This document shows, one piece after another, positions 3,506 through 28,727 of a DNA stretch of 34,807 nt. Origin of the DNA: Opitutus sp. (lineage in GTDB: Bacteria > Verrucomicrobiota > Verrucomicrobiia > Opitutales > Opitutaceae). The stretch is from NCBI GenBank assembly GCA_025361365.1, contig JANYAM010000090.1, forward strand, positions 1-34,807. Direction: 5' to 3'. A program made the translations under genes and the position numbers. The notes under the pieces were generated by a model. The model was not told the origin of the DNA, ran no database searches, and saw only the letters and a program-made list of their open reading frames with translations. The stretch's first letter is position 1; every line of letters begins with the position of its first letter.

Positions 3506-3705
3506 GGCAGGGATCAGCTGACGTTACCCCCACGGCCCCGGCAACCCCAAGCCTTTCTTACAGTCCGGAAGGAGGGAAAGGTGGCGCGCGTTGCCCTCAA
3601 CGCGCTGCTCGGTGGGTGAACGTCCTGAAGCGCCTTGGGGGCAAGGCGCTCCACCTTCAGGCTGAAAGCCGCTTCGCGCTGGGCAGGGTCCACGAGCGCG
3701 CGATG
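3486..3705. repeat. Copy 2 of the ~215-bp duplicated intergenic module
   Basis: Counterpart of 1890-2105. It contains the hairpin GCGCGTTG-ccct-CAACGCGC near 3586-3605 and, about 25 bp further on, GCGCCTTGGGGGCAAGGCGC in the opposite sense followed by tccacc. The two hairpins are mirror-placed, each with a GGTGG/CCACC outer end, which is the layout of a REP doublet. Single REP units of the same family occur near 25951-26025. Confidence 0.85.
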
Positions 3706-12258: not shown

Positions 12259-14808
12259 TCACTTGAGCAACTCGCGCAGGTCGGCGAGGCTGAGCTTGGC
12301 GGCGGCCGCATCGCTGGCGTCGAACACGCTGGCCAGCAGCGCGCGCTTCTCGTCCTGCAACGCCATCACCTTCTCCTCGACCGTGCCGGCGCAGATGAGC
12401 CGGTAGCTGGTGACGACCTTGGTCTGGCCGATGCGGTGTGTGCGGTCGGTGGCCTGGGCCTCGACGGCGGGATTCCACCACGGATCATAGTGCACGACGG
12501 TGTCTGCGCCGGTGAGGTTGAGGCCGGTGCCGCCGGCCTTGAGCGAGATCAGGAAGACCGGAATGGTTTCGTCATTCTGGAACTTGTCTACCGCGGCCTG
12601 GCGGGCTCTCACCGTCATCGAGCCGTCGAGGTAGCAATACGTGACGCCCTCGGCCTCGAGTTCCTCGCGCAACAGCGCGAGCAGCGACGTGAATTGCGAG
12701 AAGACGAGCATGCGGTGGCCCTCGTCGATGGACTCGGCGAGCAGTTCCCGAAAGGCATCGAGCTTGGCCGAATTCTGGTAGGGCGGGTTATCCTGGTGGG
12801 AGCGAGCTTGCTCGCGACTGCGTGCGTCCTGAGTCGCGAGCGAGCTCGCTCCCACAGCGCGCGCCTCCACGAGCCGTGGGTCGCAGCAAATCTGCCGCAG
12901 GCGGAGCAACTGCGTGAGCGTGGCGAGATGCAGCCGGCCCTCGGAGGCGCCTTTCGCCGCGAGGTCGAAGAGTTCGCGCTCGGTGGCCTCCTGGGTGTGT
13001 TTGTAGAACACGGCCTGCGCGGCGGTGGGCTCGCACCAGATGACCTGCTCGATCTTGGGCGGCAGCTCGGGGGCGACGGCGACCTTGGTGCGGCGGAGGA
13101 TGTAGGGCGCGGTCTGCACACGCAGGCGCTCGTCGTGGAAGGCGCGTTCCTCGCGCTTCATGCCGGCCGGGAGCTTGGGCAGGAAGCCGGGCATCAGGAA
13201 CTCGAAGAGCGAGCGCAGGTCGTCGAGCGAGTTCTCCAGCGGCGTGCCGGTGAGCAGGAAACGGCCGCGGCCGTGGAGCACGCGCAGCGCCTGCGCGGCC
13301 TGGGTGCGGCGGTTCTTCAGGTGCTGCGCCTCGTCGGCGAGGATGACGTCGAAGTGCACGCCTTCGAAGAGCTCCGTGTCGCGCGCCAGCGTGCCGTAGG
13401 AGGTGAGCACGAGGTCGTAGCCGCCGAATTCCTTCGCCGTCAGCCGCGCGCTGCCATGATGGACGAAGACGCGCAACGCCGGCGCGAAACGCGCGGCCTC
13501 GCGCCGCCAGTTCTCCACGAGCGACGCGGGCACAACGACGAGGTGCACCGTTCCGGCCTGCTGGCCGGCCGGTGTTTGTCCCCGGTTCTCGCCTCCGCGC
13601 TGTCCTCCGGCCGCGCCCGGAGTCGGCGAAACCGGGGCAAAGGCGCGCGCGGCGGTCGCCGTTGCCAGCAGCGCGAGGGCCTGCGGCGTTTTGCCCAGAC
13701 CCATTTCGTCGGCGAGGATGCCGCCGAGTTCCTGCCCGTGCAGGTGCCAGAGCCACGCGACGCCGAGCTGCTGGTAGGGACGCAGCACGGCGGTGAAGCT
13801 CGCCGGCACCGGCGCGGGCGGCAGCACGGAAAGGTTCTTCAACGCGGCGCTGCGGGCGTGCCAGGTTTCCGGCGCGGAGAAATGCGGCGCGATACTCTCG
13901 AGCAGGTCGGTCACCTCGGCGGCGCGGGCCTTGGCGATGCGGTGCCGGCCCTGGGCGCTGGCGGCGGACACCTCGCCAGCGAGCGCGCGCTGCGCAGCCT
14001 CCAGCTCGGTGAGCTTGGCGGCGTCGATCAGGTAGATGGCGCCGTCGGCCTCGATGTAACCGCGACCGGTGGCGACGGCCGAGCGGATTTGCGTGTCGGG
14101 CGCCGTGCCGGCCTTGAGGCCGAGGGTGACGTCGTAGCCGTCGGTCTCCTCGCCGATCGAGGCTGAGATCTCGGCGGCCTTCAGGTGCGCCGTGTTCTTC
14201 TCGAAGTTGGCGGTGAACTCGGCGTGCAGGTTGTCGCGCAGCAGCGCGCCGTGCGTGGCGAGGAGGTTGAGGACCTTGTGCCGGTCGCGCAGCCACCACT
14301 TGCGGGAGAGCGGGTCGAGGACGAAACGGTGGGCGCGGAGGAACTCGAGCGCGGCGTCGTAGGCCATCGACTCGCGCGAGGGCAGGGTGATGGCGAGGAA
14401 GTGTTCGGAGCCGTCCACAGTCAGCGGCGTCAGATCATCGTCCTCCGGCTCCGGTTTCCTTTTCGGCTTTGGTTTCTCCACCGCGAGCGGCGGGAGTGCG
14501 ACCGGCTCGATCAGGTGCTCGCTCACGCCCGGCAGCTCGAGGCCATTCCAGGCCAGAGGCAGGGTGGGTTTGTCGGCGCGGAAGAAGACGCGTTCGCCGA
14601 GGAGTGCCTTGACGAGCTCGCGCAGCTGGGCGCGGTTCAGCTGGATCAGTGACACCGGCTGCGCGGACACGCCGAGGCGTTGCAAAATGGCGAGTGCGGG
14701 CACGAGGTCCTCCGGCGGCGGTGCCGTCAGGTCCAGCTCGACGCGCACGGCGATGGCGTCGCGCGGGGCGGCGGCGGGGAGATTGGGCGGGAGCAGCAGG
14801 CGGAGCAT
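12259..14808 (-). CDS. SNF2-family DEAD-like helicase
   Basis: 849 residues. A divergent N-terminal region (1-330) leads to the SNF2 core: motif I ILADEMGLGKT (about 363-373), motif II DVILADEAQHLKN (about 487-499), motif III LTGTPLEN, and the C-terminal lobe with LVFSQFTSLLALL, YLDGSMTVRARQ, ISLKAGGTGLNLTGADTVVH and DRTHRIGQTKVV. These are DNA-translocating ATPases related to the HepA/RapA and bacterial SNF2 groups. Two stretches look inserted: about 389-411, spanning a palindrome at 13575-13642, and 651-671, encoded by a 60-bp REP doublet at 12796-12855. Both keep the frame and lie outside the core motifs. A small Cys protein precedes it by 3 bp. Confidence 0.92.
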   Translation of the reverse strand: MLRLLLPPNLPAAAPRDAIAVRVELDLTAPPPEDLVPALAILQRLGVSAQPVSLIQLNRAQLRELVKALLGERVFFRADKPTLPLAWNGLELPGVSEHLIEPVALPPLAVEKPKPKRKPEPEDDDLTPLTVDGSEHFLAITLPSRESMAYDAALEFLRAHRFVLDPLSRKWWLRDRHKVLNLLATHGALLRDNLHAEFTANFEKNTAHLKAAEISASIGEETDGYDVTLGLKAGTAPDTQIRSAVATGRGYIEADGAIYLIDAAKLTELEAAQRALAGEVSAASAQGRHRIAKARAAEVTDLLESIAPHFSAPETWHARSAALKNLSVLPPAPVPASFTAVLRPYQQLGVAWLWHLHGQELGGILADEMGLGKTPQALALLATATAARAFAPVSPTPGAAGGQRGGENRGQTPAGQQAGTVHLVVVPASLVENWRREAARFAPALRVFVHHGSARLTAKEFGGYDLVLTSYGTLARDTELFEGVHFDVILADEAQHLKNRRTQAAQALRVLHGRGRFLLTGTPLENSLDDLRSLFEFLMPGFLPKLPAGMKREERAFHDERLRVQTAPYILRRTKVAVAPELPPKIEQVIWCEPTAAQAVFYKHTQEATERELFDLAAKGASEGRLHLATLTQLLRLRQICCDPRLVEARAVGASSLATQDARSREQARSHQDNPPYQNSAKLDAFRELLAESIDEGHRMLVFSQFTSLLALLREELEAEGVTYCYLDGSMTVRARQAAVDKFQNDETIPVFLISLKAGGTGLNLTGADTVVHYDPWWNPAVEAQATDRTHRIGQTKVVTSYRLICAGTVEEKVMALQDEKRALLASVFDASDAAAAKLSLADLRELLK
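12796..12855. repeat. REP doublet (REPIN-like) inside the SNF2 coding frame
   Basis: Two 24-bp arms, 12796-12819 and 12832-12855, are inverted copies with one mismatch, separated by 12 bp. Each arm starts with GTGG and contains a small hairpin (GCGAGC-tt-GCTCGC), the layout of REP elements mobilised by RAYT transposases. The total is 60 bp, exactly 20 codons, and the gene reads through it without a stop. Confidence 0.88.
13575..13642. repeat. Second palindromic element inside the SNF2 gene
   Basis: The left arm tttgtccccggttctcgcc (13575-13593) and the right arm ggcgaaaccggggcaaag (13625-13642) are imperfect inverted copies. The spacer has its own CTCCGG/CCGGAG pairing. It encodes Gly/Pro/Gln-rich residues between helicase motifs I and Ia, where family members are usually compact. 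Confidence 0.6.
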
Positions 14809-26612: not shown

Positions 26613-27122
26613 TCAGGGTGGGCTCAATTCCGCCAGGTGGCGATCCGTCTCGGCGAGGTTCTGCTGCAGCTTGGCCAGGACTTCTTTTTCGCTGCCGATC
26701 CGGCGGGTGACGGACTCGGGTGTGCCGAGGGCCGCTGTCCAGGCCACCTGTTGCTCGTCGTGATCGAGCATCTTGGTGATCTCGTCGACTTCGCGGGAGA
26801 AGCGGGCTTTTCTCGCCTGCCAGCCGAGGAGCACGACGGCGTGGACGGTCTTGCCGTTGGCGACCTTCACCATGTCCTCCTCGCGGCCGGCGGCGGTCGC
26901 GATGTCGCGGTTCATGGCATCGAGCTGCAGTTCCTGGGTGGCGGTGTCGAAATCCTTGAGCTGCTCCGGCGTGAAGCGCGTGCCCAGGTCGGCCCGGAAG
27001 CGGGTGAACTCACTCGGCGAAGTCGCGCTGACGGTGATGTCCGGCAGATCGGCTTGCTTCGCGCAACCGGCGAGGAGACCGAAGATCAGGAAGGCGAGGA
27101 AGCGGGGAAGGGGCACCGGCAC
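26613..27122 (-). CDS. Lipoprotein, paralogue of the 27804 gene
   Basis: 169 residues from a GTG at 27122, giving MPVPLPRFLAFLIFGLLAGC, a lipoprotein signal. The mature part matches the C-terminal half of the 27804-28727 product: EFTRFRADLGTRFTPEQLKD against EFARFRADLGTRFTPAQLEE, then VVLLGWQARKARF against VVVLGWRARKDRL, then GTPESVTRRIGSEKEVLAKL against GTPEAVTRRLASEKEVLAKL. No known family recognised. Upstream codons read a CGCAAAG-type repeat (27130-27160), so the longer frame to 27194 is doubtful. Confidence 0.8.
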   Translation of the reverse strand: MPVPLPRFLAFLIFGLLAGCAKQADLPDITVSATSPSEFTRFRADLGTRFTPEQLKDFDTATQELQLDAMNRDIATAAGREEDMVKVANGKTVHAVVLLGWQARKARFSREVDEITKMLDHDEQQVAWTAALGTPESVTRRIGSEKEVLAKLQQNLAETDRHLAELSPP

Positions 27123-27803: not shown

Positions 27804-28727
27804 CTAATTTTCCTGAGGCCGGCCAATCACTTCGTCCATCTCAGTGAGACGGCGCAGGGCGTCGTCGCGGTCGCGTCTGAGTTTGGCGAGGACTTCCTTC
27901 TCGCTGGCGAGGCGGCGGGTGACGGCCTCGGGCGTGCCGGTGGCGGCGGTCTTGGCGGCTTCGGCTGTATCCTCGTTAACCAGCCGGATGGCCCCGGGGA
28001 TTTCACGGATGAGCCGGTCCTTTCTCGCGCGCCAGCCGAGCACGACCACGTCGGGGAAGGTCTTCCGATTGACGCCGGCCAGCAGGTTGGCCTCGCGGCC
28101 GGGCGCCGCGAGCTGTAGCTCCTGGATGGTGATGTCGAATTCCTCCAGCTGCGCCGGCGTGAACCGCGTGCCGAGGTCCGCCCGGAACCGGGCAAATTCA
28201 TCGGCGGAGGCCGCGCTCACGATGATGTTCGCCTTGGCGGCCACCACCATGGCCTTCAGGAGGGAATCGAAGTCGGCCGGGGCCAGGTGAAAGGGGACCG
28301 GAGGGTAGCTGTCACCCTTGTCGGGCTGACGGATCAGCGTGAGGCTGATGGCGCCGCCGTGACGGACGGACGACATCCGCAGGAGGCCGCTGCTCAACGT
28401 ATCGATGTCGGCAAAGGTTTGCTCCCTGCCGTCGGGGCCGCCCTTCACGCGATTGAGATTGTCCGAGAAAAGTTTCCATTCCTTTTCGTGGAAAAACATG
28501 GGGCCGCCATAGGGCGAGCGCCTGAAGTGGAGGTTGATGCTCCGGCTGCCGTCTGGCTGGTATTCGACGACGATGGCCAGGGTCGCGACCCGGCCCTCCT
28601 CGAAATAAGCGATATCCTTGTAGCCGCTGCCAGCGCGCGCGTTGGGGCTGCTCAGGCCGGCCAGGAGCAAGACGATCCCACTCAGGGCCATGAACCGAGG
28701 CGACCAAAAGGCAGTCGGAGGCTTCAT
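27804..28727 (-). CDS. Exported unknown protein with the shared paralogous domain
   Basis: 307 residues from the ATG at 28727. A signal peptide (to about residue 32) is followed by an N-terminal domain of about 150 residues (VATLAIVVEYQPDGSRSINL; HGGAISLTLIRQPDKG), absent from the 26613 paralogue. The C-terminal half carries the shared block described there, rich in charged helices and likely coiled. No family is recognised. The gene ends 13 bp before thpR, which ends about 84 bp before the second paralogue. Confidence 0.8.
   Translation of the reverse strand: MKPPTAFWSPRFMALSGIVLLLAGLSSPNARAGSGYKDIAYFEEGRVATLAIVVEYQPDGSRSINLHFRRSPYGGPMFFHEKEWKLFSDNLNRVKGGPDGREQTFADIDTLSSGLLRMSSVRHGGAISLTLIRQPDKGDSYPPVPFHLAPADFDSLLKAMVVAAKANIIVSAASADEFARFRADLGTRFTPAQLEEFDITIQELQLAAPGREANLLAGVNRKTFPDVVVLGWRARKDRLIREIPGAIRLVNEDTAEAAKTAATGTPEAVTRRLASEKEVLAKLRRDRDDALRRLTEMDEVIGRPQEN

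Follow-up and report, generated by a model that had tools for sequence, protein, structure and literature searches.

REP elements are usually treated as intergenic, and they are thought to spread with a Y1/HUH-type transposase, RAYT. The nearest precedent for the locus reported here comes from Opitutus terrae. In the survey of Di Nocera et al. 2013 (PMC3733652), which lists intragenic units for GTAG REPs in its Table 1, intragenic REPs were most numerous in this species, where most GTAG-20 elements carry GTGG heads and double insertions occur. O. terrae has REPs that lie wholly inside ORFs, some genes are hit twice, and repair and helicase genes are prominent among the hosts (PMC3733652). Across all species surveyed, dimers or groups that encode 20-30 residues made up over half of the intragenic inserts, many of them in replication and repair genes, and the authors suggested that the insertions may be neutral, lying in flexible linkers or loops (PMC3733652). 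One instance in which different REPs share roughly one position, within the recB genes of two Xanthomonas species, is described there, and a term search of the main text of that paper finds no mention of SNF2 (PMC3733652). In Pseudomonas fluorescens, the inverted REP doublet (REPIN) is the unit, is associated with RAYT and was described in extragenic space (PMC3116915). The Rickettsia palindromic elements (RPE) are 105-146 bp long and lie in frame within conserved protein genes; translation and activity were reported for one RPE-bearing protein, and RAYT is not named there (Delihas 2007, PMC2229807). RPE-4 and RPE-6 were counted as CGTC-type REPs by Di Nocera et al. (PMC3733652).

We analysed a window of 34,807 nucleotides, meaning the whole stretch of Opitutus sp. 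DNA under study, from a 3.56 Mb draft genome of 297 contigs (G000). An earlier note, made from the letters of the window, had claimed a REPIN-like 60-bp doublet translated inside a SNF2 helicase gene. The doublet, which we call REP-A, is as claimed in its coordinates, its two 24-bp arms with one mismatch, its GTGG heads and its frame (Table 1). Its arm pattern is GTGGGAGCGAGCT(T/C)GCTCGC. Read on the minus strand, it supplies exactly 20 codons without a stop to the open frame of 849 codons, as residues 652-671 with the peptide VGASSLATQDARSREQARSH. Pfam domains on this ORF are SNF2-rel_dom at residues 345-646 (2.2e-60) and Helicase_C at 682-794 (1e-25). Since the doublet falls in the gap between them, it lies in the inter-lobe linker, as the earlier note had placed it. 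Searching the window for inverted repeats (spacer up to 30, up to one mismatch), we find the doublet to be the sole one of such size, and three mononucleotide shuffles of the window gave none. Its RNA fold has a predicted energy of -48.3 kcal/mol, compared with -22.1 ± 3.0 kcal/mol in 200 shuffles (z -8.6). Five of the six reading frames of the element are open; the single stop lies outside the arms, which are stop-free in all six frames.

Table 1 Features of the SNF2 locus in the window.
Feature	Coordinates	Strand	Remarks
SNF2-family helicase gene	12259..14808	-	849 aa; open frame and Pfam domains
Family B right-arm remnant (GTAGGG...CCCTAC)	12777..12793	-	GGATAACCCGCCCTACC
REP-A inverted doublet (REPIN-like)	12796..12855	.	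Exactly codons 652-671 of the SNF2 gene
REP-A arm 1	12796..12819	+	24 bp, one mismatch to arm 2, GTGG head outward
REP-A arm 2	12832..12855	-	24 bp, GTGG head outward
Element C at second linker (S1)	13537..13647	-	Residues about 388-424; best-repeated core 13540-13581

We refer to the linker that carries the doublet as S2. It has 33 residues in the window gene and 9 in the empty orthologues of G014 and G015. The gain is 24 rather than 20 residues because part of a family B palindrome persists 3′ of the doublet in the gene. This remnant is identical to the B insert of G012 and differs by one base from its counterpart in G009, where the B palindrome at this site is complete. We infer from the open and conserved frame that the element is translated.

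Other repeats were seen in the window. Two direct copies of 128 bp (1980-2107 and 3575-3702), 96% identical and 1.6 kb apart, each lie about 70 bp upstream of an ATG-started minus-strand ORF. Two further duplicated stretches (26668-27043 and 27880-28231) are 71-81% identical at a spacing of about 1.2 kb.

The host gene is intact. Its named relatives come from Lacunisphaera, Candidatus Didemnitutus, Opitutus and other Opitutaceae records, and the best-scoring solved chain by sequence is that of 1z63, a helicase of the snf2/rad54 family. Orthologues, some of them partial, are present in 20 of the 21 genomes of the genus; the match of G002 is split over two frames, and G007 has a 46% paralogue only. 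Compared with five relatives, the gene shows dN of 0.07-0.12, dS of 0.33-0.56 and dN/dS of about 0.18-0.22, which indicates purifying selection. The AlphaFold model of the helicase (33-row alignment) has a mean pLDDT of 83 and a pTM of 0.71. The pLDDT falls below 50 at residues 104-124, 393-416 and 843-849; the blocks covering 651-680 average 56, 63 and 68, and the adjoining blocks 81 and 93. Helices are drawn at 645-658 and 662-673 in the predicted model. The poor prediction of both repeat-bearing linkers fits flexibility, of which it is a weak sign because the alignment is gappy there and the REP-free stretch 104-124 is also low. The helicase is probably made with the 20-residue spacer and works normally.

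We then looked for further copies of REP-A. By BLAST, 16 distinct places in the window's genome match at E < 1e-5 (56 rows at E ≤ 10, both strands of the palindrome being counted). With a 20-base arm pattern, allowing up to two mismatches, we find 43 half-sites spread over 26 places, while the reversed control finds 0 in the same genome at the same threshold. Scanning the genus at up to one mismatch, we find REP-A in 13 of 21 genomes, and the control matches none. Exact copies occur in 22 of 120 genomes drawn from the family, representing 14 of 49 genera. A search of the plasmid database with the window region gave no matches. Outward doublets and unpaired half-sites number 14 and 6 in 20 loci of the window's own genome, 23 and 11 in 29 loci of G007, and 6 and 8 in 11 loci of G003. 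In the 60 loci examined, the outward GTGG doublets measure 47-74 bp, with 54, 55 and 60 as the commonest lengths. REP-A is therefore a REP/REPIN by its short palindromic unit, its GTAG-like (GTGG) head, its many dispersed copies and its inverted doublets. Linkers do vary freely in length and sequence, so that an ordinary linker might have become palindromic by chance and resemble a mobile-type repeat. The dispersed copies, the half-site count against its control and the z value of the fold rule this out, leaving it practically no probability.

The copies in the window's genome are often genic. We examined 20 of the 26 half-site places, namely those with an arm at up to one mismatch; coding calls came from a rough codon score and were counted only with Pfam support. 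In nine of the 20 loci REP-A lies in frame within a Pfam-supported ORF, nine have short flanks or no two-sided coding signal, and two are at contig edges. The nine host genes encode SNF2, Mfd, a DinG-type helicase, RsmH, QueG, PdxA, an MFS transporter, an SDR and a molybdopterin-binding dehydrogenase. The insertions in the MFS transporter and SDR genes are half REPs (half REPs are carried by loci L016 and L037). The statement of the earlier note that REP elements are normally extragenic thus describes this lineage poorly, with nine of 20 copies in frame within recognisable genes, and the same proportion sets REP-A apart from the P. fluorescens doublets described in extragenic space (PMC3116915). 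G007 and G003 have insertions of the same kind, several of them at the identical place in the same genes; seven genes were compared between species. Different host genes use different frames of REP-A. We had considered the encoded peptide as the conserved thing and rejected it, since the genes read the element in different frames.

The DinG and Mfd genes could be followed across the genus. Among DinG orthologues of 18 genomes, REP-A is present in five, a decayed copy in one (G011, judged by eye), a B-type insert in three, another palindrome-like insert in three, an unclassed long linker in two and a short linker in four. Among the 19 Mfd orthologues scored, with the fragments of G003 and G016 omitted, REP-A occurs in four, one arm in one (G002), a B-type insert in three, an unclassed linker in seven and a short one in four. 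The DinG-type gene of G007 (L209, contig C21) has a second, single REP-A arm in the same frame downstream of the main site.

The two SNF2 linkers show the same diversity, the classes B, C and other being assigned partly by eye, with dispersal tested for REP-A, B and C. At S2, 20 genomes were scored: REP-A is present in two (G000 and G003), family B-type GTAGGG...CCCTAC palindromes in five (G002, G009, G012, G013 and G017; the left head is degenerate in G012 and G017), another REP-like half in one (G006, by eye), and a short linker of 6-17 residues in 12. At S1, where 19 genomes were scored, REP-A is found in two (G013 and G016), a B-type palindrome in two (G010 and G017), element C in five (G000, G001, G002, G009 and G015) and a GTGG-type palindrome in one (G003, by eye), and nine linkers have 15-23 residues. 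Across an alignment of 21 SNF2-type ORFs (52,008 nt, the G007 paralogue included), REP-A at up to four mismatches occurs at S1 and S2 only. The genus orthologue that has the same residues as the window gene, that of G003, has the palindrome as well, and those without the palindrome are without the residues. Neither this refuting outcome named in the earlier note nor the other one, an absence of further copies in the genome, was seen.

Families B and C are dispersed too. Family B is dispersed in 12 of the 21 genus genomes, with eight places in the window's genome at E ≤ 0.001. Element C in the window gene has copies in its own genome on contigs C190 (98% over 42 nt) and C256 (100% over 34 nt). 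Its core encodes the peptide GQTPAGQQAGTV. The two own-genome copies at L088:1501-1541 and L089:1501-1534 seem, by eye, to keep this frame and to follow directly on a signal-peptide-like start. Upstream of S1, element C also recurs at the SNF2 locus of G009, of G015 and of G017. In named relatives, still larger repeat-like inserts are seen at the same SNF2 linkers (L121, L124, L125 and L129); in L129 (JACQFT010000114.1), the S2 stretch has 87 residues and the 48-residue S1 includes a REP-A-like peptide.

We asked whether misassembly had put the REP into the gene. The genome is a draft, and two of its contigs, C130 and C11, terminate in REP-A. However, the insertion recurs in the separate assembly of G003, where its loop is almost unchanged; other repeats occupy the same linkers in G001, G002 and G017, whose genomes are in one or two contigs; and the frame is intact in the window. 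We consider an assembly artefact very improbable.

To follow the insertions in time, we placed them on a tree of three proteins (SNF2, DinG and Mfd; 2682 columns, 21 genomes, quick search), in which G000 and G017 are sisters. These sisters differ at S2, DinG and Mfd, with REP-A in G000 and B in G017 at all three. The fewest REP-A changes on the tree are two at S1, two at S2, six at DinG and five at Mfd; these counts are blind to gain versus loss, and they score the DinG copy of G011 and the single Mfd arm of G002 as REP-A. The DinG copies of five species share the frame and a doublet of 55 bp, with the same offset in four and an offset two codons further in G016, and the Mfd copies of four species share frame, offset and a doublet of 58 bp. 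This sharing suggests that, at each of these two sites, the copies descend from one insertion.

The arms are more alike between species than the loops or the host four-fold sites. Over 18 species pairs at four sites, identity is 657/720 (91%) in the arms, 90/196 (46%) in the loops and 5259/8428 (62%) at host four-fold sites, an arm figure that is overstated because the rows were picked as REP-bearing and the pairs are non-independent (two DinG copies, the decayed one of G011 and the contig-edge one of G016, were left out). The arm identity still does not fit well with plain neutral decay of old insertions, and selection, homogenisation or re-insertion may account for it.

Selection might keep the intragenic palindrome as an mRNA hairpin, as a protein-binding DNA site or as a useful linker peptide. 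Candidate binders of a palindromic DNA site are gyrase, IHF and RAYT. The excess of arm over loop and four-fold identity agrees with selection, and so does the single doublet length kept across species at DinG and at Mfd. But the choice of REP-bearing rows inflates the arm identity, close relatives have no REP or another family at the same site, and the frames differ among genes, so the peptide is not a common target. We regard selection as unlikely.

Alternatively, the arms may be kept alike by gene conversion, or by new REPs inserting again and again into older ones at the same linker. At S2, G000 and G003 have REP-A with 13 of 14 loop bases identical, while G017, the sister of G000, and G009 carry B, and in the window gene REP-A adjoins a B arm. 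We tested whether host DNA had passed locally between G003 and G000 and saw no sign of it: down to 40 codons, the flanks of G000 resemble those of G017 most, or equally well, and therefore no host DNA tract seems to have moved, which also agrees with conversion or re-insertion of the REP. On the other hand, the common frame and length at DinG (five species, four with the same offset) and at Mfd (four species) look like descent, and decay is seen in some copies, namely that in DinG of G011 (judged by eye) and the single arm in Mfd of G002. We regard this explanation as rather unlikely.

We also checked the RAYT genes. A 174-residue protein of G003 and G007 is flanked on either side by two exact REP-A arms; it scores 87.7 bits (G003) and 85.5 bits (G007) against NF047646 (REP-associated tyrosine transposase, cut-off 80). 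Among 17 genus RAYT loci examined, these two alone have REP-A beside them, and the arms of each pair face inward, opposite to the doublet of the window. The association in these two species, together with the inverted doublet as the unit, likens REP-A to the REPINs of P. fluorescens (PMC3116915). The window's genome gave 11 RAYT-like matches in one search and seven Y1-transposase matches in another; of the latter, four were scanned and three exceeded the NCBIfam cut-off. A close copy of the REP-A RAYT was sought in this genome and not found, the best match being 31% identical. RAYT-type transposases, for which the earlier note had suggested a search, are present in the genome, but the REP-A-flanked ones are those of G003 and G007. 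The three RAYT genes of the window's genome above the cut-off (L074, L075 and L077, on contigs C125, C100 and C277) are each near palindromes of a different GTAG-type family, by eye. G006 (18 REP-A half-sites) and G019 (25) have no match whatever to the REP-A RAYT, and G009, G010 and G016, with many REP-A copies, have distant matches only. REP-A is RAYT-associated in part of the genus; its mobility in the window's strain is uncertain, and without a close REP-A RAYT it may no longer move there.

We consider it likely that these are RAYT-mobilised REP elements surviving where a linker tolerates them. A REP-A doublet would have landed in the codons of the linker that joins the two RecA lobes in the SNF2 helicase, probably in an ancestor common to G000 and G003, beside or inside an older palindrome. 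It would have survived because the arms are stop-free in six frames and the insertion kept the frame, because some 20 additional polar residues can be accommodated in the linker, and because RAYT-type genes are numerous in much of the genus. The same permissive linkers would then gather different repeat families in different species. The REP identity, position, frame and copies of REP-A, the conservation of the gene, the REP-flanked RAYT of two relatives and the reuse of the linkers are observed; transposition as the cause, translation and the neutrality of the insertion are what we would read from them. Against RAYT-mobilised elements speak the lack of a REP-A RAYT in the window's genome, G006 and G019, the inward arms at the RAYT genes and the arm identity above that of four-fold sites.

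Intragenic in-frame REPs are already known from a related bacterium, and REP-A is a further example. It resembles the GTAG-20 REPs of O. terrae in its GTGG head, its in-frame dimers in genes and its related host, the likeness resting on those features (PMC3733652). The likeness to Rickettsia proposed in the earlier note holds in effect and not in membership: REP-A is a palindrome in frame within conserved protein genes as RPE are, but it is a 60-bp element with GTGG heads in Opitutaceae relatives, whereas the longer RPE belong to Rickettsia (PMC2229807), and O. terrae is the nearer precedent (PMC3733652). Going beyond what we found reported for O. terrae (PMC3733652), the same four linkers are reused by several families across the genus. 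This site reuse, at two SNF2 linkers, DinG and Mfd, with different families or none within one genus, looks new; we found no other report of REPs reused at the same linkers in the open-licence literature at the level of titles and abstracts.

Tentatively, and with slightly more doubt than confidence, we propose that these linkers (two in SNF2, one each in DinG and Mfd) could be long-lived REP docking sites. They would be occupied in turn by at least three dispersed families (REP-A, B and C) and by additional palindromic inserts, with the frame kept in the ORFs that were examined and with resident arms staying near-identical, while four-fold sites match at about 60%, through REP-into-REP replacement, homogenisation or selection. 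Nine of the 18 classifiable copies of REP-A in the window's genome lie in frame within genes, including Mfd and helicases. Within the genus, the states found at fixed sites of the same proteins (REP-A, family B, other repeats, empty) form a natural series, and two questions therefore become testable: whether RAYT-borne elements choose their sites or are tolerated there, and whether selection or copying keeps their arms.
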